Below are positions 41,746 to 63,605 of a DNA stretch of 64,000 bases, piece after piece. The stretch is from Myrmaecium sp. VS I D KN 1 (lineage: Eukaryota; Ascomycota; Dothideomycetes; Valsariales; Valsariaceae). The notes beneath the pieces are model-generated. The model was given only the letters and a program-made list of their open reading frames with translations, searched no databases and was not told where the DNA came from. Location of the stretch: the NCBI GenBank assembly GCA_019775845.1, contig JADQAV010000009.1, positions 1,634,247 through 1,698,246 on the forward strand, read 5' to 3'. Within the stretch, counting starts at the first letter, position 1, and each line of letters opens with the position of its first letter. The translations under genes and the position numbers were made by a program.

Positions 41746-42616
41746 GGTGGTCGGCTCTGCAGGGGAATGAAGACGAAGAAGATACGCAGGAAAAAGAAAT
41801 AAGAAAAAGAAAAAACAGCTGGCAAAGGAGTGGATGACAAGTGAAGTCTCCCCTCGGTCCAGGGCACATATATAAATTCACGAATCCCGGGCTCTGAGAT
41901 TACACCTTGTACATACCCACCCAGCTAGGTAGAACACTCCGCCTCCCCTCCCCTCACCTCCCCCTGTTCACAACTACCGTAGCTACCGTACCGCGTCTCC
42001 TGCAAATGGCGGGCGGGGAGGGGGGAAGGGGTTGGCTTGTGCTCGGCCCGCCACCGCGGCACCCACTTTCCGCATTTCCGCACTGCCGGCAGACGACGCT
42101 GGTCGAGTGTGTGTGTGTGTGTGTGTGAAGGATCTCGAATGGGTCCGTGGGGTGGGATTTGTTCTCCCATCCCCAAGTTCACTCCGGTGTGGAAGACCCT
42201 TGTGCTGCACTCGGCACCGCTGGGACAGAGCGGTGGCCCGGAGATGGACATGAAGGCCCGCAGATGTGTGAATGTGCGCCGCACATGGTGGCATTGGTTG
42301 TTGCTGTCCATCAGGGGATATGCGGATATGCAATGGCCGCCCGCTCATCACCCACAATCAGGGGAATTCCAATGCACCAGTTCACCAGACGTTCGCTTCC
42401 CTCCCCCCTGACTCGTGCCCCCGAACCAAACAGGGTCCGCTCGAGCGGGGAATACAGCCGGCAGCAGCAAAAGGGGGTCAGGGTGGCCAGGCCCACTCAC
42501 ACACTAATCGCTGCGGGTCTGCGGCCCAGCGGCGGCCAACGCCCGGCACGCCCGGCTACCTAACTAACAGCTGCGGCCCCACCGACGTTATATCGGCCCG
42601 TTTTACTAGCTATCCG
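41746..42616. other. P450 promoter and left flank of the hAT element
   Basis: Divergence zone without a gene. A TATA-like element for the minus-strand P450 lies at 41867-41876 (TTTATATATG on the minus strand). A (GT)n run lies at 42107-42126. The last 60 bp become A+T-richer next to the element. Confidence 0.5.
42609..42616. repeat. Left target-site duplication (GCTATCCG)
   Basis: Eight bases flanking the left inverted repeat. They match the right flank GCTGTCCG (56380-56387) at 7 of 8; the single difference is a G/A transition, the kind RIP makes. Confidence 0.6.
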
Positions 42617-42694
42617 GGACGAGCCTAAGGAGCACCCTACCTGCGGCTAGGGAGTACCCCTATAGGCTAGGCTTTCCCTTCTTTAAATAGTAGC
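42617..42694 (+). repeat. Left terminal inverted repeat of the hAT element
   Basis: Begins GGACGAGCCTAAGGAGCACC. The first 32 bp equal the reverse complement of the right end; later differences are mainly C/T and G/A transitions with the left copy carrying the T/A. It ends TTTAAATAGTAGC. Weaker similarity may extend about 25 bp further inward. Confidence 0.85.
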
Positions 42695-42701
42695 GTTAAG
42701 C

Positions 42702-42720
42702 AGCGCGTTAGAAACGCGCT
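42702..42720. repeat. Subterminal hairpin AGCGCGTT-AGA-AACGCGCT
   Basis: Perfect 8-bp inverted repeat with a 3-base loop just inside the left terminal repeat. It could be a transposase-binding or structural element; purely positional inference. Confidence 0.5.
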
Positions 42721-45085
42721 ACGGCGTAATCTTAGCGCTTAGTATTATCCGGTACGTTATTTATAAGAATTACTAGAGTATTAAAAACTCTTCTAGTTTA
42801 CTATAGTACGTCCTTCTAGCTTATTTCTAAAGTACTACTCTTACTTATTACTTATTATATATAATATTTACTTCTACTATTATAACTATTACTACCGCTA
42901 CTACTACTACTACTATCCTTTCTACTAATACTTCCGACTAATACGCTTTAGATAAACTAATTAAATTAAGCTTAAATAAAGAGTTTACTTTTAAGTTATT
43001 ATTATTATTACCTTTAGAAGTAGAGTTAGATATAAGTTATTTTAAATATTCCTTCTCGACGTACTTCCTAAGGCTATATACTTATTATATACTAATATAT
43101 TAAGTATAATATATACCTTTACGCGAGGCTTTAAATATAAGCTTAATATATTATTAAGGGCTAGAAAAGTAGGGATAATATACTTTATAAGAAGTTTCTT
43201 TATTATATAGAAGCTAGTACGCTAAAGAATACGCGAAAGCTTACTAATAGTAATTATATATATATATAATATAGTTTAAAAAGAGATAGCTATTTAATAG
43301 GTATCTTCCTTATTATAAATATAACTAACTTTTCTAAGAGGCTTTAAAGGATTTAATACTAGTTAGGAAATACTAACCGTAAGTATAACTATACTTTAAT
43401 AGCCGCGATTATACTACTTAGCTATAAATAGCGAACTTATATTAAATAAGTATATTAAATAATTATATATTAGAATTATATAGGAATTAACTATACCTAA
43501 GCGATTAAATTATTATAAAGCTCTTATTTAAAGCTTCTAACTACCCTTAAGGACGTTTTAAATAAGCGATTATATACTTACTATAATTAACTTTAGATAT
43601 AAACTATCTCTAAAGTATTTTTAAAAGATATATAGTAATAGGATTTTTAGTACTTATATATACTTCTAATACTACTATAAGTAATCGGCTATCTTAGAAG
43701 GATACTATAAGTCCTCCTACTTAATTATATATATATAAAATAAATAAATACTACTATTTTATTTTTAATATTACCGCTATCTCTAGCATAAATTAAATAA
43801 TCTAAGTTAGTATTACTTTCTTACTAGATAAGTAAGAAGCTATATATACTTAGGTACTTAAGTAATATCCTTAGATACTTTATTAAGAACGAATTACTCT
43901 ACTAAATATAATTATCTCTAACTATAAAAAAGCCCTTCTTAATATTATTAATTATATCCTCCCTAAGGTAGCCTTACTCGTTTATTACTAGTATTAGAAT
44001 AAGGATATTACCGCTTATATATATTATTTTATCTAACCTTAGATTATTAATAATAAAAGTAATACTTTTATTAACTATTAAATAACGTAATAATAGCTTA
44101 ATACGTACTATAAATACGTAAATACTAAGACTAAGGTAGCTTTTAAAGAGGCGCGCTAGGAAGCTACTTAATTATACTATTATAGTAGGTAGTATTTTAA
44201 GAGGGAGTAGTAGATTTATAAGGAAAGATATATTATATTTTAAATAAATTAATACGCCTATTTTAGCTACTAAGTATCCTCTCGTCTAAAAGCCTTATAT
44301 ATAAAGCTTAAAAAGATACTTAAGAATTTACGCTCTAATATCTAAATATTTATATAACGGCTTTAACTATTCTAGCGATAGCTATTTTAGAGGCTTAATT
44401 TTACTAAGAATATAAATAACTAGCTTATTATTTCTTAGGAAATTAAGAACTTATTTTATATAGAAGTTATTTATATTATCTACTACTATATCTTATAACT
44501 AGTAAATTAGGAGCGTATATATACTACTAAGAAGTTTAAGAAGTAGAGAGAGGTAAGCGTTCATCTTAAATACTTTATATTAAGCTCTTACTTATTAGTA
44601 AAGTAACGGGTTTATAGCTATTTATATAGGTATATTATTATTACTTTTCTTAAATAAGGGGAAGTTCTTTTAGCTTAGTACTTTAACCCTAACTCTAACT
44701 ACTTATATAGTAGTAGCTACTTACTTAAGATATACCTTTCTTTTAGTATTTTACTACTTTATTATTCTCTTAAATACTACTTCTACTACCTTCTTAAATA
44801 TTACTTCTACTACTTTTTTAGCTACTCTCTTAGCTACTCTTTTAAATACTTCTACTACTATCTTAAGTATTTAAGTTTATTAATAATAAGCTATTTACCT
44901 TCTAAGCTTAGAAACTACTACGCCTATAGAGCTATACTCCCTATATTTTATTTAATACGTATTAGTAATAAATAGTAGGCTGTAATTTATTAATAATACT
45001 ACTATAATAGCTACTAGCTAAGTACTAGTAAGCTATAGCTTATAACTTAAGCCTTCTTAGTTAATAAAGTACTATTAGTAGGCTG

Positions 45086-45310
45086 TAGCTTATTAATAAC
45101 GCTGCTATAACTACTACTAGTAGAGCTTTTAGCTTAAAAAGTAATATAGCTTATTACTAATACTACTATAACTACTACTAGTAGAGCTTTTAATTTTAAG
45201 AGTAATATAACTTACTACTAATACTGCCGCGACCGCTACTAGTAGGGTTTTTAACTTAAAGAATAATATAACTTATTACTAATACTACTATAACCGCTCT
45301 ACTAGAGCTA
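45086..45310 (+). repeat. 61-bp tandem repeat array inside the hAT element
   Basis: Copies start at 45086, 45147, 45208 and 45269 with an exact 61-bp period; the last is partial. Unit begins TAGCTTATTA and contains CTACTACTAGTAGAGCTTTT. The third copy keeps GC-rich CTGCCGCGACCGCT where others have TA-rich bases. Confidence 0.8.
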
Positions 45311-46488
45311 CTACTATTTATTACTTTATTAAAGTTCTTAAATAAAAGTACTTATACTTACTTAATACTATAACTATCTATTACTAACTATTAACTATTT
45401 ACTACTATTATTTACTATTTATCGTCCTTCCTACTCCCTCCCCTCTATAAAATCCCTCCTTATTTAAAACGCTTTAATATATAGCCCGCGCCCGCTAAAA
45501 CTAGAGTAGCCTATTTAGTTCTATATACTAACTAAATAAGGTTCCTACTAATTAAAAAAAAACCCTAGCTAAAAATTAGGAGCTTCTACTAACTTAAAAC
45601 TAGCTAAACTTAAACCTTAGAACTTATAAAAAACCCGAAAAACCTAAAAATTTAATTTATAGTAAATTATTTTCCTGCAAATTTATATATAAACTAAAAT
45701 AACTCTTAAACTTAAAACTTAAAATTTTACTTTATTAAATTAGCTAGCTATACTATCTAATATTTCTTTTATTTTTTACCCCTCTTAGTCTTATTTAGGG
45801 TCTTAGCCTTACTACTCCGGGATAGCTTTACTATCTAACCTACTTTTAAAGTTTTTAGTATACTTAAAGCTTCTTCTTATTTTAGTAGTCTAAGAGCTAT
45901 AATTATTAGTATATTATTCTAATATTCTAATCCGAAGTAACTTAAATAACTTATATTACCTTATTACTCTAGTATACTTACTAAAAGTAGTAGTAGCTAT
46001 TATAGCTATAAGATACTTTATCTTATTAAAAGTTAAAGTATAAGTATTAAACTAACCCCGGGCTAGAAATATATTAGTAGACTATTATAAGTATTATAAA
46101 AATAAGAAGAACTATACTATATAGTAAGTTAAGTATAAAGGCCTCTGCTATAAGCTTAAGGATATTAAAACCTTTTTTTATAATAAGTTTTTCTTTAAGC
46201 TAATCCCCGCTAGTCTTACTAATTATATTAAGTATTATAGCTTAAAAAACTATTTCTTTTTACTAGAAGTTTTAGTAAGAATAGTAATTAGTTTATACTT
46301 ATCTATAGTATATTAAATTACTTATTATAGTAAGGAGGGAGTTATACTTACTATTTATATTATCCTTCTTAAGGATAAACTTATAGGGATCCTTAATCTT
46401 AGTAGGCTCGGATTTTACTAGATCTTTATAAAGATCCTTTAAAAGGTTTATTAGAGTCTTATAACCTTATATAAAAACCTTATATATA

Positions 46489-46590
46489 GTTATTATATAG
46501 TATATTTAGTTCTTATATAGTAGCGGGTTCTTATATAGTAGTAGGTCTTTATATAGTTATAGGCCCTTATATAGTAGAAGGATCTTATAA
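46489..46590 (+). repeat. Short TTATATAGTAG-type tandem repeat
   Basis: About five imperfect copies of a roughly 22-bp unit, TTATATAGTAGxxGGTCT, within the element. Confidence 0.5.
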
Positions 46591-47340
46591 AGTAGTTAGT
46601 TTTATAGTAGTTAGTTAGTATCTAATAGTCTTATATATAAGTAAGGTATACTTTAATTTTAATCTTATTAAAGCTCTTTATAGATTAGCCTTTAGCGTCT
46701 CTACTAGTATCTTAATATATAAGTAAGTAAAAGTTAGTAAGGGGGGTAAAATACTAGGAACGTATTATTAGTCCCTTACGTAGCTTATAGCTAGTTTAGA
46801 TATAAGTTCTTTTATTCCTTTATAAATATACTATTATGGAATATTAATAAGTAAGTATTCCTAGCTAGATATAAATATATAAATATTTATATACTTATAA
46901 GGAAAAGAAGCGTAACCTTATAATATTATAGATAGTATAGTAGTTAATAGCTAGTATATTATAATATATAGTAGAAAATTTTAGTATAAATAATAGTATA
47001 TACGCGCTTACGTAATTACGTATATTTATTAATATATAGTACTAGGAATAATAATAATAATAAATACTATATATATAGCTTATATATATAATCTATATAT
47101 ATATAGTCTACCCTCTAATATACGTAAGGTCTACGAGATATTAGCTACTACTAGAACTAATAAAGCTTATATCTCTCTACTAATAATATTAAAAGAAGAA
47201 CTAATACCTCTTAAGAAGAAGGCTACTATAGCTAAGAATTCTAAAGTAAGTATAATTTATTAACTAAGAACCTACTTACTAAGTTAGTATTTACTTCTTA
47301 GCTAGTATAGATTTTTAAGTTAAAAAAGCGAGCTAATAAG

Positions 47341-47688
47341 GATATAACTATTACTTTATTTAAGAAGAAAAGGCTTAGCTCTAGCCCTACTACCCCTATA
47401 TAATCTTATAATAAAACTTTAATACCCGCTAGTAAGGAGCCTAAGGAGGCTAAAAAGCTCCTTATTAAGGAGGAAGTTACTATATATAATTATATTTATT
47501 AAAAAGATAGTAAAGTTAATTATAATCTATACCTTACTATAGATAAACGGCTAAAGAATAAATAGAATAAATTTAAGAAGAGTTATAATATAACTACTAA
47601 GCAGGCTATATTAGCGTAGCTATTATATAAAAAAAGTAATTTTTATTATAGTATTTCCGGTAAGTTATATTTAGAAGCTAGCTCTTAA
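47341..47688 (+). pseudogene. RIP-mutated exon relic (cargo or transposon gene)
   Basis: One frame reads for about 116 codons with Lys-, Glu- and Ser-rich, protein-like composition (KKKRLSSSPTTPI; PASKEPKEAKKLLIKEEV). It is broken by only a few stops, all TAA or TAG, and no indels are apparent. No family recognised. Confidence 0.45.
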
Positions 47689-50600
47689 TATTTTTTACTT
47701 ATATTATAAAGGTAACTTTATTACCGCTTAGACCCCTATTTTTATCGACTTATTAATTAATAAGATTAATAATATATATCTAGCTATCTTAGAGGAGAGG
47801 TATAAGATAGCGCTAAATAATATAGATTAAGCCGCGAAAGTACTTTAAACCTAGTAATACTTTAAGATAAGTCTAGGTTTATTATTATTCTATATACTAT
47901 TACTAATATTTTATTTACCTTAGTATATTAATTCTAATTTAATTATATCGGCCTATAATAGCGCGCTATATAGGGCGCGAGCTATATAATATTATATAGC
48001 TATTCTAAAAAATTATAACTATAAACTAGACCGGGTACTCGAGGCTAAAGGTATTAAATAAAATAAACGGATAAATATTATTAGTAGGGAGATTAAAGAC
48101 CTTAATAACTATTTAAGTAAGAATTAGAAAAGTACTAAGGTAGATCTACTCTCTAATTATATATAAGATAAAGTAAGTAAGGATCTTATTATAAATAAGA
48201 AGCTAGCGGCTAAAGAAGTTTATAAGTAACTATTATAAATTATCTAGTAGATAAGATACTAAGGTATATATATACTAGTATAGAGGCTTAAATATAAAAT
48301 CCTAAGCTTTAATATTCGCCTAAGACCACAGCTTATAATCTTATATAAAAGTCTTATATACTAGTAGTACTACTTAATAGAAGAAGTACTATAGCCTTTT
48401 TATAATCTATAAGCCCTACTACTACTTATATAATACTAGCCCCTTATATTTTATAGTTTTACTAAGTTATTTAGCCCTAATATTTTATATTATCTGTAAT
48501 TAAATCTGATCCCGTTAACTAGAGTTTATAACCTTATATATAAACCTTATTATCCTAAGATAAATACTTAAATCTACCTATCTTATTAATACTCTTATTT
48601 CTTCTAGTAAAGGTCTTTAAATACTCTTTCTTATAATTTCTATCTAATACGTCTATATAGCTAGAGGTATTAAATAGCCTTATACTACTAATTAATCTTT
48701 TCTAAACTTTAGAATTATCTCTCTAAAATAGCTAGCCGGCCCCGGTCTTTAAATATTTTCTTTTACTCCCGGATTATTATATTTAGAGACTAGGTTAAAA
48801 AGGATAATAATATCCCTTACTATCTTATAAATTATAATATATCTTCTTATAATACCCTTTCTATCTTCTTATAGGCCCCTTAGAGAGATTATTAACTTAA
48901 GATTAGGTTCTTTTATACGCCTTTAGCCAGCTAAGTTATAATTACTAGTACTTAATAAAAGGATATTCTATTCTATATATAAGCTTATATTATTACTCGC
49001 TTACTAAGAAACTAGTAAGGACTTAAGAATAGTTAAAGAATTCTTATCTAGGATTATAATACGCCTATAGCTATTTAAGATAATATCCTCTAATATAAGG
49101 ATAAGATATTTATATCTAAGTAGCGCTAGCTAGTAGATTTATTTTAAAAATATACTACTTAGATTTTATCCTTTTAGATAGGTAGGTCCGGAAATTACTT
49201 AAATTAATATATCTTACTTACTATAAACTAGTTAGAGTAGTTCCTTTTTAAATATTTAGGGTTACTTAGTAATCTTATAGAAGAATAGTTTTATTAATTA
49301 AAATAGTATTTAAGCTACCTTATTATACTTAAAGGAAAATCTTAAGCTAGCCGCGCTTAGTTTTTTTTTAAAAAAAAATAAGTAATACCTATAGCCTTAT
49401 TCTTTAATATACTCGATTTATATATTTACCGCGTAAGGTTATAGTATCTTATTACGTTTTAATATTTCTAGGGTAGATTAAAGATACGGGGTATAAGAAA
49501 AACTTAGAAATCTTAAGATAGCCGCGCTTAATCTTTTTTAAAATTTAATATATAATATCTATAGCTTTATTTTCTAATATACTTAATTTATATATCTACC
49601 GCGTGAGGTTGTAGTATATAGGTTAATTTTAAAGGATATTTTTAATATTTAATCTTAAAATACGTATATATAATATTAATATATACTAGTTAGGGTGCGC
49701 TTCCTACTTATCTACTATATTATAAATTTAGAAGGATATATAATTCTATTCCTTACTATATACCTTAACTACCTTAGAGTAAACTAGCTAATATATCTCT
49801 ACTTATTACTAATAATACTCTCCCGTAGCCTTCTAGCTAAGTTTATATCCTTATTTTAAATAGTTAATTTCTTAGCGTAGATAGTATATAAGCTTATATC
49901 TAAATATTATATTAGTATAAATACGTTTCCTTATCTTAAATAAATAAATATACCTTTAAATAAGATATTAGATACGCCTCTGCGGCCTCTTAAAGTACTA
50001 TAAGTATACTAGCTTAAAAGCGGAGATTTACTTTATATATATATATAATTTCCTAGACTAGCTTTATAAATAGAATCTTATAGATTAGGAGCTTTATTAA
50101 TTACTAGTATCTTCGGATTTTTTTAAGAGCTAGTACTAGTAATATATTAGTATAAAACTAGTAAGTAATTATAAGAAACTTATAAGTTACTTACTACTAA
50201 GTCTATAGTAGTATTTATACTTAGATAGTAGGAGTACTTTACTATAGTCGGCCGGAGCCTTATACGGAGCTTTATAACTAGGTCCTATTATAAATTATAT
50301 AGTTTTACCTTCGCTCTTACCTTTCTCTTAACTAGTACCGCTTCTTACCTTTATTCGTACTATATTAAGTAAGGTAATAAAGTATAAGTAAGAGTTAAAG
50401 TAATAGTATAAGTAATATTTATAGAAATATATAAATATATTAGTACTAAGTATAGCTAGCGTATTAGTATATATAGACTTAAATAATACTATACTAGAAA
50501 TAAAGTATTTATTATAATATAATATTAATATTTAACTTTATCAGAGCTATAGTAAGCGGATATAAGGCTTTTATATAAGGTTTATAGGCTAATTTATATA

Positions 50601-50720
50601 TCTAGTATTTATAATAGATATATCCGGACGTAAAGTTAAGGCTAGAAGGCTAGTAATACTAATTATATTACTATATACTGTACGCGTAAGGAGTTTATAA
50701 GTTTTACTATATTTATATAA

Positions 50721-51038
50721 GAAGTAATTACCGAAGGTACTTTATACGAAGAATTTAAGTAGAAAGAGTACTATAAAAAACTTCCTAAGGTAAGAAAATT
50801 AATATTTTAGGATTTAGTATTAAAATAGTTACGGGGAGATAGTAAGGTTAAAAAAAGCTTTAAAAAGAAAGTATTTAAGTAGGCCTTAGAGGAAAGGGTA
50901 TAGAGTAGGCTAGGGTATAAAGCTTTAGAGGTTTATATAAGTATAAAGTAGAAGAGGACCTTAGAGTATAAATAAGCTAAGGTCTAATAAGTATTAAATA
51001 AAGAGGTGAAAAAGTCTTATAAGAATCTAATCCTTAAG
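50721..51038 (+). pseudogene. RIP-mutated exon relic ending at a GTAAGT donor
   Basis: A 106-codon stretch in one frame with charged, helical composition (GTLYEEFK; KEYYKKLPKVRKLIF; KKSYKNLILK). It has only TAG/TAA interruptions and ends exactly at a consensus GTAAGT splice donor at 51039. Preservation of frame and splice site argues for a former gene silenced by point mutation alone. No family recognised. Confidence 0.5.
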
Positions 51039-53559
51039 GTAAGTTACTCCGGTTTATTTATTTTAGCTTTTATTAATTTTACTTAGTTCCTATTATTCTC
51101 TATCTAGCTATAAAAGTATAACTTAGAGCTCTATAACCTTAAGAACTACTAAAACCTTAAAGATAACTAGAAGCTTTAAATATACCTTCTAGTTATATAT
51201 TATATAGTTTACTAATATATATTAATATATTAAGTAGATATACCTTACTAATAAGGTTATAGACTTTATTAGTACTAAAGTAATCTCTTACTAAAGTAGT
51301 AGAGGAGATAGAGAGATTTATTAAAGAGGATAAAAAAGAAAAATAGTACTAATAGCGGAATAAAGTAACTATTAATATATATAACTATAATTATAGCTTA
51401 TAATTTAATAAAAATAAGGCGCTTAAGCTAAAGTAGTAAGATACTTAGGGGGAAGTAGTTACTGTTTATAATAATAGCTTAAGTAGCTCGTAGGATATAT
51501 ATACTATTACTATAAATAAGTTAGAACTTATAAAGCTAAGTATTTTTATAGAGGGCCTATCGGCCGATTTAGGGGCTAAGATAAGTAAGTATAAGCTAGG
51601 TATATTTAAGAAGAAGGAGTATTACTCTGCTATTAATATTCGTTAGATAGAATATTACGCTAGAAGAGTATAATATTAAGGCTATATTAAAGGCTGTACT
51701 TTTACTAAGTTTACGGTTAAAGATAGTAGGGTAATAAGGATACTAGTATTTTACTAGAGATATTAAAAGTACTAATAAACTCTTTACTACTTAAGAAAAG
51801 TTAGGGAAAAGTTAGATAAACTCGTAGGATTAAGTTTATAAAATATAGAATAGAATTAAATCTAATTAAGTAATTCGTACTTTAGAACCTTATATAAAAG
51901 TCTTATATCCGGTTTATATATTTAGATTTTATCGGATTTTATTAGTTTAATCGCCTACTCTAAGGGAACAGAGTCTAGTCTACCCTCCCTACGCTTAGAA
52001 CCTTATATAAAATCCTTATATCCGCTTATAGGTAGTCTTTATTACTTAATATATCTTAAATATCCTTATAGTCTTTTTTCCTACCTTTATTACCTTTATT
52101 ATTATCTAATATAGCTAGTCCCTTATAATTATTATCTAAGTTATAGTCGCTCTATAATCTTAATAAAAACTATAATAAATTATAAGTAATAGAGTATACT
52201 TCTAGATTTATCTATTTCTCTATACTAGAAGAAGTATCTATCTCTTAGAATCGTAACTATATTATATATAAAATCGTATATAATTAGGTATTCCGTATAT
52301 AGTAGCGTAGTACCTCCTTCTTTTAATATATTAGAATATATACCTAAGCGGGTAAGGTATATAAAGCGAAGATTAATTACTCGGATTAAGAGAAGCTCCT
52401 ATTATTAAAATATTTAAGATTTTAAAAAGCGGTACGACTATTTAATCGGATACCTATTAAGCTATATAAAAAGTATTTAACTAGCCTCTTATATATAAAG
52501 GTATTTAACTCTAGTACTAATATTATTATATAGTATTAAAGTTATTATCGCGGTAATACTTCTATCTTAATTAAATACTTTATCTAAAATAACCGGCCCC
52601 GATAGATATAGTACTTAATTCTCTACGTATTAATTCTAGGAGCTTATTCTTCTCTTTATTATAGAGAATAACCTTCCTTTCCACGTTATAAAGTCCCCTA
52701 TATTCTAGGAAATATTTTACTTATTCTATTAGGATTTAAAGCTACTTAGTTATAGTAAGCTATATCTCTTCTACTACTTAAGCTTAATACTAATCCTATC
52801 TAGTATTACTCTATCGCTTACTTACTTCTCTATTAAATAAAGTAGATAGCTATATTCTAGAGAACTTAGGCGAGGGGACTAAGATTAGCTTAACCTTAGA
52901 TTATTAAATAAGCTTAAATAATATCTCCTTCCTTACTATCTTAAGGTCCTTTATTATAAAATAATAGGACCTTAAGGAGGTTATAATTAGCTTTAAGGAG
53001 GTAATCGGCCCTTATACTAGTAATAACCTTAGAGGAATAGTTTACTAGGTACTATAATAATAAGGATTATAAAATAAAGTTTCTTACCTAACTATAAATA
53101 ATACTTTAAATAATAAGATGTTACGTAACACCTTAAATAGCTTAATATAAAAATATATAAGAGAAAACCTAGTATTTAATAGTATAATAAGAGTATATTA
53201 TATATTATATATTATTTAGTTATATATAAAGGTATTCCTATAAGTCCTCTCTATTAACCTTATAACTAAACAGGGGCGTAATTAGGAAGAGGAATATAAT
53301 AGTCTTCCTTATACTACTATAGTTTTATATAAGATTATATATAGAAAGGTACGTAAAGGAAATATATAAAGTACTAAGTCCTAACTTTAATCTAGCTTTA
53401 TAAACTCGTTATTTATATATATAGCTTACCGGAACAGGAGAAAGTATTTTTAAATCTCTAAGTAAAGTTTAAATATTAAAAATATACCCTTCTCCGTAAT
53501 ATTAAGATATAATAGTTATCGTTTATTTTAATATATATTAGATATTACCTTCTAAAGGA

Positions 53560-54640
53560 TATTATTACGGAGTATATTTAGTCCCGGGGTAATTCTAACT
53601 TATTAACTCTTTTACTATCTAGTTTTAAGTAGAAGATTATCCGGTATATTATCTCTATCCTTCGGCCCTTTAAATAATAGACTTAGTATATAGGCGAGTA
53701 TTAAGAAGTATTAGTTAATATAGTACTTAAGGTATATAATAACCTCTTTAACTATATTAAGAAATATAAGGAAGAGCTTTTAAAGCGGAATAGTAAATAA
53801 AGTACTTATTTTTAATAGGCTCTATAAGCTATAAAGGTTAAGCTCCGTTACTATTATTCCTAGGCGGATATTTAAAGATTAGTACTACTTTTATTAGGAC
53901 TTATTCTTAACTCTAAGGATAAACTTACGTACTTTTAAGATAACTAATTATTTTAGGATAATAGTATTAACTAAGTATACCTCTACTAGTTATAATTTAT
54001 AGAGTATTATAATTTAAATTACAGGTATCTTAAGCTATAGTATAAGTCTACTATAATAAAACCTATTATAGTAGGTAAGCTAAACCTCTAATTACTTATA
54101 AAGATAAATTCTCCTAGTTTAAAGTAGAATATATAAGGTTTATTAGAAGCTAAACAGTATATTTAAAGCTTTATTTACTATAGTTTTAATATTCTCTAGT
54201 TATAGGCTGAGATTAAACTATAATTTCCTATACTTATAAGAATAGTACGGGATATCTTAGTAATTCTAGCTTTAAGAAACTATATTAATAAAGTATTTAA
54301 TATTAGGAGGGATATCTATAACTATTAGTAAAATAAGCTTTTAGTAACTACTATTATTATACTTATATAGGTTAGATACTACTATATTATAAACCGGAAA
54401 GCTTAGAAAGATATTAAGGTAGAAGAACTAGTAGAGGAGTAAGAAGATAATAATAACTAAAAGACGGAAAATAAGGAGTTAGAAAGTAATAACTTTTACC
54501 TTTCTAATAACTTAGATAAGGAAATAGAGGACTTATAATTATAAGTAGCTAATAAAGTTTAATAGATAGATAGAGTAATAAATATACTTTAGAGTAATAA
54601 GGAAGATAATAATAATATTAATATATTATTTTAGGTATTA
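53560..54640 (+). pseudogene. hAT transposase relic, catalytic C-terminal half and dimerisation domain
   Basis: A single frame (codons starting at positions like 53582, 53828, 54224) carries, in the right order and without indels: SRGNSNLLTLLLSSFK, the position of the hAT RWNSTYLML motif; ILRPFK..Y.GEY.EVLVN.VLKVYNNL, resembling the L.PF...T..S....VLP.Y motif; AIKVKLRYYYS then GLILNSKDKLTYF, the hAT KL.YY ... LDP..KL.YF block; and FPILIRIVRDILVILALRNY with NKVFNIRRDIYNY, the C-terminal hATC dimerisation motif (P.LA..ARDIL.IP.S...VER.FS..R). All stops are TAA or TAG. An acidic tail follows. The N-terminal part is probably upstream but unreadable to me. Confidence 0.75.
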
Positions 54641-54797
54641 GGGAGAAGGAAGAGGGTCTAATAGTAATTACCCCCTCTTTCTTAAGATTATAATAGCTAG
54701 GGATATATAGAGTATAATAAGTTATAAAGGCCCCTTAAATAGTACCGCCTACTATATAACTATTAACTAGGCTCCCTATAAATAGAGATAGGTTAGA

Positions 54798-55011
54798 TAG
54801 TATAAAATTAAATCTAATTAAGTAATTTAAGCTCTAGAACTTTATATAAAAGTCTTATATCCGGTAGGTAGGCTGTAGCGGATAGAATTAAATTTAATTA
54901 AGTATTTTAGGCTCTAGAACCTTATATAAAAGTCTTATATATAATAAGTAGGTTATAGCGGATAGAATTAAATTAAAGTAAGTACTTTAAGCTCTAGAAC
55001 CTAATAATAAT
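54798..55011 (+). repeat. 80-bp tandem repeat with dispersed relatives
   Basis: Two full copies and one partial with an 80-bp period (starts near 54798, 54881, 54961). The unit contains GAATTAAATTTAATTAAGTA and CTCTAGAACCTTATATAAAA. Related single copies occur at 51852-51905, 51996-52030 and 48338-48365. Confidence 0.7.
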
Positions 55012-56300
55012 ATAAAGAAAAACTTTCCTTTTAGATTTAATCTCTTAATTATTTCTAATAAAGTCTTTTATTCTTTAATTATCCTAGTATTTAACCTAGT
55101 AGTTATATTAGCTAGTAAGGTTATTTATATTACTTTCTAGGGTTAGCTATACTCGGTAAATTTAGAGATACTTTAATAAAGTTAGAAATATATTAGAAAA
55201 ATTTTTAGTAGCTAAAACCTAACCTATACTAAAACCTCTTACTAAAACTATACTTAAACTAAAAAATTAGAGTCTCTACTAGCTAAAAAACCCGTCGGGC
55301 TCTAATTATTATTAAGTTTCTAACTAAATAAGCTACCTTAGCTAAGACGCTACCGCCGCCTACTAAAAACTATTAGAAATAGCTTAGTTAGTCTAGATAT
55401 AATATAATAGAATTATAGGAAGCCTACTACTAAAGTAAGCTTAAGAAGGTAGTACTAACTACCTACGTAAATAATAGGAGGTATATAACTATAACTACTT
55501 ATTAAAAGTAAGCTCTTTCTAATAATTAGGAAGAAAATAAGTAGTATATATTACTTATTAAGGCTTTAGTACGTATCCTACTAATCTTATACTAAATATA
55601 AAAGACTTTATTTAGTATTTATTTATTCTTCCTTCCTTCTTAGCGTATTTTAATTAAAGTAGTATACGTTTCTAGAGGAAGTTTTAGGCTATTCTTAAAT
55701 ACTTTAAATACTTCTTATTAAGAGTAATTATACCCTCCTAGGTAAACTACTCCTTTAGTATAAATAAAACTAACCGCCTTCCTTATAGCTACTTATATAA
55801 GTATACTTTTATTAAGTAGTAGGCGGCTAGTATCTATATATAGGAGAAGATAGTAAATAATAGCGCTATAATTATTATATATATTTACCTCCCCCCTCTT
55901 ATTTAAAATAATACTTATATAGTTTAAGTAATAGGAAAAGGTTCTTAAGTTATACTAATTAGTATCTTATAGTATATACTTAATACTATTAAGATTAATT
56001 AGGAAATTATAAACTTACTAATTCTTATTTATTAAAAGGGAGTACTAATTTAATAGTTCTCCTCGTATAAAATACGTGTTAATATTCTTAACTTCGCTAT
56101 AAGTAAGTTAGAATATCCTAATAAGGATATAGTAGAAGAATAGCCCTTATAACTATATATATAGCTCGGTTTAAATAATTAATATACTTACTTTTCTAAG
56201 TTATTTAGTATTCTTTCTAGTAGCACAGTATAGAGATAATAATATTAAATTAAATATAGTAGGCGTTAGCCCCTCCTTCGTCTGAAACGCGCCGTCTAAA

Positions 56301-56379
56301 GCTACTATTTAAAGAAAGTAAGGCGCGGGCCCACAGGGGTGCTCCTCAGCCGCAGGTAGGGTGCTCCTTAGGCTCGTCC
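56301..56379 (-). repeat. Right terminal inverted repeat of the hAT element
   Basis: Reverse complement starts GGACGAGCCTAAGGAGCACC and matches the left end over about 78 bp (first 32 identical). It keeps more GC than the left copy (for example CCCACAGGGG here against CCTATAGGGG). Confidence 0.85.
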
Positions 56380-56387
56380 GCTGTCCG
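56380..56387. repeat. Right target-site duplication (GCTGTCCG)
   Basis: Directly flanks the right inverted repeat and matches the left flank GCTATCCG at 7 of 8 bases. Confidence 0.6.
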
Positions 56388-61965: not shown

Positions 61966-63605
61966 ATGGCTGAAGAAGCCGGACCGGAGCGGTCTCAATG
62001 CCAAGACCTCGAGGCTGGAGCTGCGCGTGCAGTTGCCAGTCGAGCAAACGGTGATATGCGGGTGGAGAGTTCACAAAAGCCAGAAGACAGGCCTTTCTCC
62101 ATATTCACTCATAACCAGAAGCGACTCATCATCCTCTGCGCCGGTATCTGCGCCTTCTTCTCACCTGTCTCCGGCCAGATATATTTCCCAGCTTTGAACG
62201 AGATCTCTTCAGACCTCCATGTATCTAACACGCTCGCCAACCTGACCATCACAACCTATCTGGTACGGGCCGCTTTCCTCAAGTTCCACCTCAATAGCAC
62301 ATAGGTACTGACCCCCCACAGATTATGCAAGGCCTCGCACCCACCTTCATCGGCGGCCTCTCCGACGAGTCCGGCAGACGGCCCGCCTACATCATCTGCT
62401 TCGTCCTCTACCTCGCCGCCAACCTCGGCCTCGCTCTACAATCAAGCTACCCGGCCCTGATGGTGCTGCGCTGCCTGCAGAGCGCCGGGAGCAGCGGCAC
62501 CGTCGCCCTGGCCAACGCTGTCGTCGCTGACCTAGTTACCCCCCAGGAGCGCGGCATCTACATCGCCTACATGTCTGTCGCGCCCCAAGCTGGCCCCGCG
62601 CTTGGCCCCATCGTGGGCGGCTTGCTTGCACAGTACCTTGGCTGGCATTCTATCTTCTGGTTCCTCCTGATCGTTGCCGGTGTCGTCTTCGTGCCCATGC
62701 TGCTCTTCTTCCCGGAGACCTGCCGCAAGGTCGTCGATGACGGCTCCGTGCCGCCGCCGCGATGGGACCGCTGCTACACCAACACGCTGATCGAGCGGCA
62801 GGTGCGCCGGGAGGGAGACAAACGGAATTCGTCCGCCCAGGGAGGGCCGCGGTGGAGGCTGCACTTCCCCAACCCCCTCTCCACCATCCGCATCATCCTA
62901 ATGAAAGAAGCCGGCTTCGCACTCATCTACATCGCCATCGTCTGCTGCGGCATGTACGCCACGCTCGCTATGCTGCCCTCGCAGTTCGACACCGTCTACG
63001 GCTTCAACGAGATCCAAATCGGCCTCTGCTACATGCCCCTCGGCGCCGGCTGCATGGCCGCCGCCTTCGTCCGCGGCCGCGTTATCGACTCGCGCTTCCG
63101 CTACCATGCTAAACGCCTTGGTGTCCCTCTCCAGCGTAATCGCGCGGTTGACTTGACGGACTTCCCGATCGAACGCGCTCGCATTGAGGTCGCTTTGCCT
63201 ATGATCGCCCTTGGCACCCTTTGTATCATTGGTTTTGGATGGATGGTCCAGTATCACGTCCATCTCGCTGGCCCCCTGATCTTCCTCTTCGTTATCGGCT
63301 TCTGCGTTAGCACCGCTATGAACACCGTCGCTGTCCTTCTTGTCGACGTCTTCCCTGGTCGTCCCGGCGCCGCTACCGCGGCTAACAACCTCTGCCGCTG
63401 CTGGATTGGCGCCGGAGCGACTAGCGGGGTGGTCCCGATGATTGAGAAGGTTGGTATGGGTTGGACGACGACGTTCTTTGGCGGCTTGATCGCTGGTTGC
63501 AGCCCTGTACTGTGGTATATTATAAGGAATGGCCCGAGGTGGCGGCGGGCGAGGAAGGAGCGTGAAGAGAGGGAGAGAGGGGAGAAGATAAGGGAGGAGA
63601 AGTAG
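61966..63605 (+). CDS. MFS drug:H+ antiporter, DHA1 / QDR-like
   Basis: Exons 61966..62262 and 62322..63605; the 59-nt intron (GTACGG..CACAG) keeps phase; 526 aa. The N-tail is hydrophilic, then twelve hydrophobic helices follow with motifs IYFPALNEISSDLHVSNTLAN (helix 1 exit), GGLSDESGRRPAY (loop 2-3 motif A, G-x-L-x-D-x-x-GRRP), QSAGSSGTVALANAVVADL and GPALGPIVGGLL (motif C, antiporter type). This pattern is that of fungal DHA1 exporters related to Qdr proteins, in the plasma membrane, exporting xenobiotics or metabolites by proton antiport. The C-tail is very basic and acidic (RRARKEREERERGEK). It is the last gene before the telomere, about 300 bp from the repeats. Confidence 0.9.

Follow-up and report, generated by a model that had tools for sequence, protein, structure and literature searches.

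The 13.8-kb interval at positions 42617–56379 of the window, by which we mean the whole 64,000-nucleotide stretch of Myrmaecium sp. DNA analysed here, is best explained as two nested transposons: a Mutator-like element (MULE) of about 3.9 kb, later invaded by a 9.8-kb hAT element carrying a histone H3-like gene, with both degraded by RIP (probability about 0.9). A sequence-only reading had taken the interval for one oversized hAT with cargo or nested inserts; the nested insert is borne out, in the form of an inner hAT with an H3 gene, but the outer ends belong to a MULE. Similarly, those ends do, as had been supposed, mark a single insertion, although a second, independent insertion lies between them.

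Most of the features on which the single-element interpretation was built are real. The terminal 32 bases are identical as an inverted repeat, and the outer arms 42617–42667 and 56329–56379 are 90% complementary over 51 nt and 78% over the next 46 nt, giving a recognisable terminal inverted repeat (TIR) of ~93–100 bp. The flanking 8-mers, GCTATCCG and GCTGTCCG, are 7/8 identical, a level of agreement (at least 7/8) with a frequency of 0.0006 among random pairs of flank 8-mers; the corresponding 9-mers agree at 1/9. Within the interval GC content is 0.255 (flanks 0.60 and 0.57), TpA/ApT is 1.74 (flanks 0.55 and 0.73) and (CpA+TpG)/(ApC+GpT) is 0.04 (flanks 1.13 and 1.17), with a residual CpA+TpG of 49 per 13,763 bp. 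The matching ends, the 8-bp duplication, the normal GC on both sides and the action of RIP, all proposed at the outset, are upheld by these values, while the supposed lack of any 60-codon ORF is not strictly true, seven stop-to-stop frames of 62–98 codons being present. The MULE and the inner hAT are RIPped to an equal degree in the window, as is the second MULE copy described below. RIP is a process of the sexual cycle. The outer arm has a 61-bp tandem repeat (45089–45309) and the inner element an 80-bp one (54802–55006), and a search of the window against Rfam gave no match. The flanking genes (298–34984 and 62325–63605) look ordinary for a filamentous ascomycete; eight of the ten flank ORFs scanned, from 21 listed, gave families (F-box, Npa1/NopRA1, Eap1, Zn2Cys6, MCM6, GH28, P450 and MFS transporter).

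When the genome (25.66 Mb in 66 contigs; loci are given below as C numbers) was searched with the interior of the interval, the stretches near its ends matched C25:54962-59101 in order, and the middle matched many other loci, on C29, C5, C19, C11, C9, C18, C7 and others. The alignment of the window with C25 is broken between 45501 and 55341: C25 reads CCGCTAAGACGCTACC uninterrupted, and the window reads GCTAAAAC, then 9,839 bp, then GCTAAGAC. Once the insert and one copy of the duplication are subtracted, 3,916 bp remain for the outer element. Because this second MULE copy has an unoccupied inner site, the order of nesting is hAT into MULE. A giant hAT, in which the outer ends and the whole interior moved together as one cargo-bearing unit, would fit the matching ends, the 8-bp duplication and the uniformity of RIP across the interval, but in C25 the outer element lacks the middle and an 8-bp duplication falls precisely at the junction, the inner family is found elsewhere with its own ends, and the trace in the outer arm is of a MULE, not a hAT. 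The unoccupied C25 site refutes a single giant hAT unless C25 is itself the product of a precise deletion, and we consider that interpretation very improbable. The features of the nested pair are collected in Table 1.

Table 1. Parts of the nested pair in the window, and short genomic elements sharing the outer ends.
Feature	Position	Strand	Basis or remark
Left target-site duplication (TSD), outer element	42609..42616		GCTATCCG; 7/8 vs right copy
Left TIR, outer MULE	42617..42716	+	pairs with right end; seven short elements have the same ends
Left arm, outer MULE, RIP-destroyed	42617..45493	+	colinear with C25:54962-58127; TpA/ApT 1.9, (CpA+TpG)/(ApC+GpT) 0.03
MULE transposase domain trace (PF10551)	43734..43970	+	profile match below curated cut-off
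Left TSD, inner hAT	45494..45501		GCTAAAAC; 7/8 vs GCTAAGAC and vs unoccupied C25 site
Inner hAT, 9,839 bp, RIP-destroyed, multi-copy	45502..55340	+	C25 unoccupied site, TSDs, ends, copies elsewhere
Left inverted end, hAT	45502..45520	+	TAGAGTAGCCTATTTAGTT; 16/19 vs right end
Histone H3-like gene, last part, different frame	49820..49891	-	weak PF00125, positions 99-122
Histone H3-like gene, first part	49963..50133	-	PF00125, Pfam positions 38-93
Conserved putative hAT transposase stretch	52875..53147	+	alignment with C9, C5, C18; third-position transversion excess
hAT C-terminal dimerisation region, PF05699 trace	54224..54373	+	window below cut-off, C9 above
Right inverted end, hAT	55322..55340	-	16/19 vs left end
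Right TSD, inner hAT	55341..55348		GCTAAGAC
Right arm, outer MULE	55341..56379	+	TIR at 56280-56379; C25:58136-59136 match, 76.5%
Right TSD, outer element	56380..56387		GCTGTCCG
Short elements with outer ends	C54:32714-33207, C8:1269871-1270339, C5:806887-807416, C12:13127-13689
Short elements with outer ends, rest	C10:2289105-2289605, C11:291922-292540, C18:288322-288858

On this evidence the MULE inserted by cut-and-paste, duplicating 8 bp of target, as its anatomy shows, and the hAT later inserted into the MULE, duplicating 8 bp of it, as the unoccupied C25 site shows. RIP converted nearly all CpA/TpG in both elements and killed their genes, as the indices show; both were probably hit because both were repeated. 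A MULE domain or outer-family end also lies within ~1 kb of inner-family sequence at C13:518293-518462 and C13:519352-519633, and at C9:70255-70281 near C9:65424-69748. Given these C13 and C9 neighbours, nesting of MULE and inner family may have occurred more than once.

The outer element is a MULE, as shown by an 8-bp TSD, long TIRs and PF10551, the last exceeding its cut-off only in the C23 relative. In the window frame starting at 42618 the PF10551 match has an E value of 0.0032 for the whole frame and 7.2e-5 when a short piece is scanned, neither of which passes the cut-off. The E value is 3.2e-5 for the C25 copy, which also falls short, and 1.4e-9 for C23, which passes; C23 is among the five places listed for this family in the genome. 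This holds more widely, in that the window copies of the MULE, hAT and histone domains all score below the Pfam cut-offs and it is the relatives that score clearly. Cys and His codons are lost to RIP. No hAT family was found in either outer arm (six frames each) or in the C25 copy (three frames), and the right outer arm, again in six frames, gave no Pfam family at all. Transversions between the window and C25 are unequal among codon positions at 43350–43649 (18/4/2, p=7.5e-5) and 43500–43799 (17/7/4, p=0.007), two of 15 overlapping windows having p<0.01; the excess does not fall on third positions of the frame with the MULE match, so the coding region would lie in another or a shifted frame.

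Other copies, sought by the terminal repeats as the sequence-only reading had envisaged, do exist: the outer-end pattern occurs at 19 places in the genome, compared with 0 for a reversed control. Seven short elements of 469–619 bp, with a GC content of 0.60–0.67, have the same ends; their TSDs are perfect (8/8) in six cases and 7/8 identical in the seventh (Table 1). Their (CpA+TpG)/(ApC+GpT) of 1.02–1.71 means that CpA/TpG is not depleted in them, unlike the long copies, and TpA/ApT exceeds 1.3 in all seven. The available part of a study of MULEs (PMC6446971) gives their TSDs as 8–11 bp, so that an 8-bp duplication alone cannot tell hAT from MULE.

The inner element is, as judged from its sequence, a hAT with transposase traces on the + strand. 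Its inverted ends are 19 bp long and match at 16/19, and a degenerate pattern made from them occurs at 34 places in the genome, whereas the reversed control occurs at 1; CAGGG begins two of these ends. TSDs of the family match at 8/8 in C7 (8,286 bp between ends) and in C5:71594 (919 bp) and at 7/8 in the window, while a fourth pair of ends, in C19, has flanks that are only 2/8 identical. Two copies have near-identical targets, GCTAAGAT at C7:834528 and GCTAAGAC at window position 45494. The flanks of the 9.8-kb insert would also permit a 5-bp duplication (GCTAA), and numerous short genomic matches to both ends look like solo LTRs, as though the insert were an LTR retrotransposon, but it has no long direct terminal repeat, its six frames hold no reverse transcriptase family, and a hAT region is present. 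The 8-bp duplications and inverted ends of other copies rule out an LTR element with a 5-bp duplication, and we give that reading next to no weight.

Evidence that the inner element encoded a hAT transposase comes from two regions. A genome search with the hAT dimerisation profile PF05699 found two places, both inner-family relatives, with C9 above the cut-off and C5 below. When short pieces were scanned, all four members tested matched (window 54164–54403, E 0.0078; C9, 6.8e-5; C5, 3e-4; C18, 0.0049), although only C9 exceeds the cut-off, and C9 drops below it when longer frames are used. Over 50 residues of this region, the window, C5 and C18 are 68–92% identical to C9. Further upstream, at 52852–53151, transversions fall at the three codon positions as 8/4/33, with the third favoured in the frame of the conserved stretch (p=7.1e-8), the strongest signal of its kind. 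That stretch, 52875–53147, resembles what we take to be the hAT catalytic region; it gave no useful Pfam or PDB match. When the inner element of the window was scanned as whole frames, Pfam showed no hAT domain, comparison of the transposase with PDB profiles gave no hAT match (Sestrin-2 chains at E 0.25–0.44 are taken as chance), and a search for DUF659 found nothing, with control genomes equally silent. Further scans of relatives returned only histone and hAT families, or nothing. Codon-position imbalance of transversions also occurs outside the hAT and H3 regions, at C29:83000-83180 and at window 45952–46401 and 51202–51651; these gave no Pfam family, and the imbalance suggests that the inner element has further genes of unknown kind.

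On its - strand, the inner hAT carries a histone H3-like gene broken by RIP. Whole frames of the window gave two weak PF00125 matches (E 0.0029 and 0.28), which stand in order in neighbouring frames, and the piece 49820–50133 gave E 3.1e-5, just under the cut-off; the same gene in C29 scores 3.3e-12, above it. The 60 matches listed, of 175, between the C29 H3 and PDB are all named histone H3 or H3 variant. When the genome was searched with the H3 of C5, five loci within elements came up (C5, C64, C29, C11 and the window), along with the host H3 at C17. Judged by eye, a CENP-A-like H3 gene is present on C7, and in the diagnostic loop the H3 copies of the elements agree with canonical H3. C29 and C5 have in common an in-frame insertion of ~17–18 codons, placed before the segment matching host NLCAIHAKR; the insertion is shorter in C64, C11 has a deletion there, and the window H3 is also out of frame. 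In the C5 relative a single run has the hAT piece on one strand and H3 on the other, the same arrangement as in the window.

RIP makes transitions, not transversions, and for this reason transversions were counted by codon position, in a comparison of two diverged subfamilies that share H3 (window/C29 and C5/C64). In the H3 body, C29 against C5/C64 gave 12/8/24 (44 sites, p=0.009), or 8/7/20 (p=0.011) when the insertion was removed, and the count with window and C29 combined gave 13/6/20 (39 sites, p=0.023); these p-values are uncorrected and based on few sites. Of 23 overlapping 240-bp windows taken upstream along this alignment, 19 are flat (p>0.1), and the first four (p 0.011–0.064) favour a different position, perhaps that of another gene. 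The bias is a hint that the H3 worked inside the element, under selection, rather than as a dead passenger.

There is a somewhat better than even chance that the H3 was a passive passenger, acquired by transduplication and never functional, the bias arising by chance or from changes in the host gene before separate captures. This accords with the small number of sites in both counts and with the comparisons of host H3 and element copies, which show the same codon-position bias, and it is how the elements of Mycosphaerellaceae are viewed in the available part of PMC6710886. Against it, the H3 copies sit in homologous elements with alignable flanking sequence, and the insertion occupies one and the same position in C29 and C5, with a shorter form in C64; taken together, these make separate captures unlikely. 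An acquisition before the subfamilies diverged, with the transposase on one strand and the H3 derivative on the other, would explain the homologous position and the shared insertion. We give only tentative credence to the fuller proposal that the H3 was a working, long-kept part of a large fungal hAT lineage, a diverged H3 with an insertion in its loop region that was selected across subfamilies and perhaps shaped element chromatin or countered silencing until RIP ended it. In such a case the H3 may have been selected while the hAT was active, to which the counts lend weak support, and might conceivably have acted on the element's own chromatin.

The removal of a supposed giant hAT shows that nesting and RIP together can mimic one, and this genome joins the few with H3-carrying hATs. 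Transversions counted by codon position offer a RIP-proof test, in the inner element, of whether a histone is a working part or cargo. Should selection have maintained the H3, counter-silencing by transposons that supply a histone of their own becomes an idea open to testing.

Among published systems, the outer element is like the ascomycete MULEs of the Hop-containing group 35 (PMC6446971), having a MULE domain, an 8-bp TSD and TIRs of ~93–100 bp compared with the 85–99 bp given for an ascomycete sub-group in the available part of that study; the placement is by TIR length only, the outer transposase being too damaged. In the literature searched, H3-carrying hATs were recognised by title only in Dhillon et al. 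(2019; PMC6710886) and Manning et al. (2013; PMC3538342), both seen in part. The former describes Pseudocercospora hATs of 9.5–9.9 kb with TIRs of 18–20 bp, 8-bp TSDs and RIP-broken H3-like genes, and similar H3 events in Cercospora and Sphaerulina; in the sections available, dN/dS is given for the host H3 and the element copies are treated as inactivated captures. There is no single giant hAT here to count as undescribed. By anatomy the inner element, at 9.8 kb, is like the H3-hAT of P. fijiensis as described there in size, 8-bp TSD and similar TIR, and in both the H3 is RIP-broken with a CpA to TpA bias while a single host H3 is intact. A second H3 copy in P. fijiensis has a 16-residue insertion, compared with ~17–18 codons in C29 and C5. 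The same account of P. fijiensis gives 471 H3-bearing elements in one genome, whereas five loci were found here, and DUF659 without the dimerisation domain, whereas the dimerisation region is seen here. The hAT of Pyrenophora tritici-repentis (PMC3538342), compared by its description, likewise has a hAT transposase, an H3-like gene (H3L) between inverted ends and room for a further ORF, but is 5.6 kb long, with an additional 2.3-kb form, and most of its H3L copies are intact. The interval is thus a nested pair of known kinds of transposon with an uncommon but published cargo, and its novelty may lie in the hint of a cargo that once functioned.
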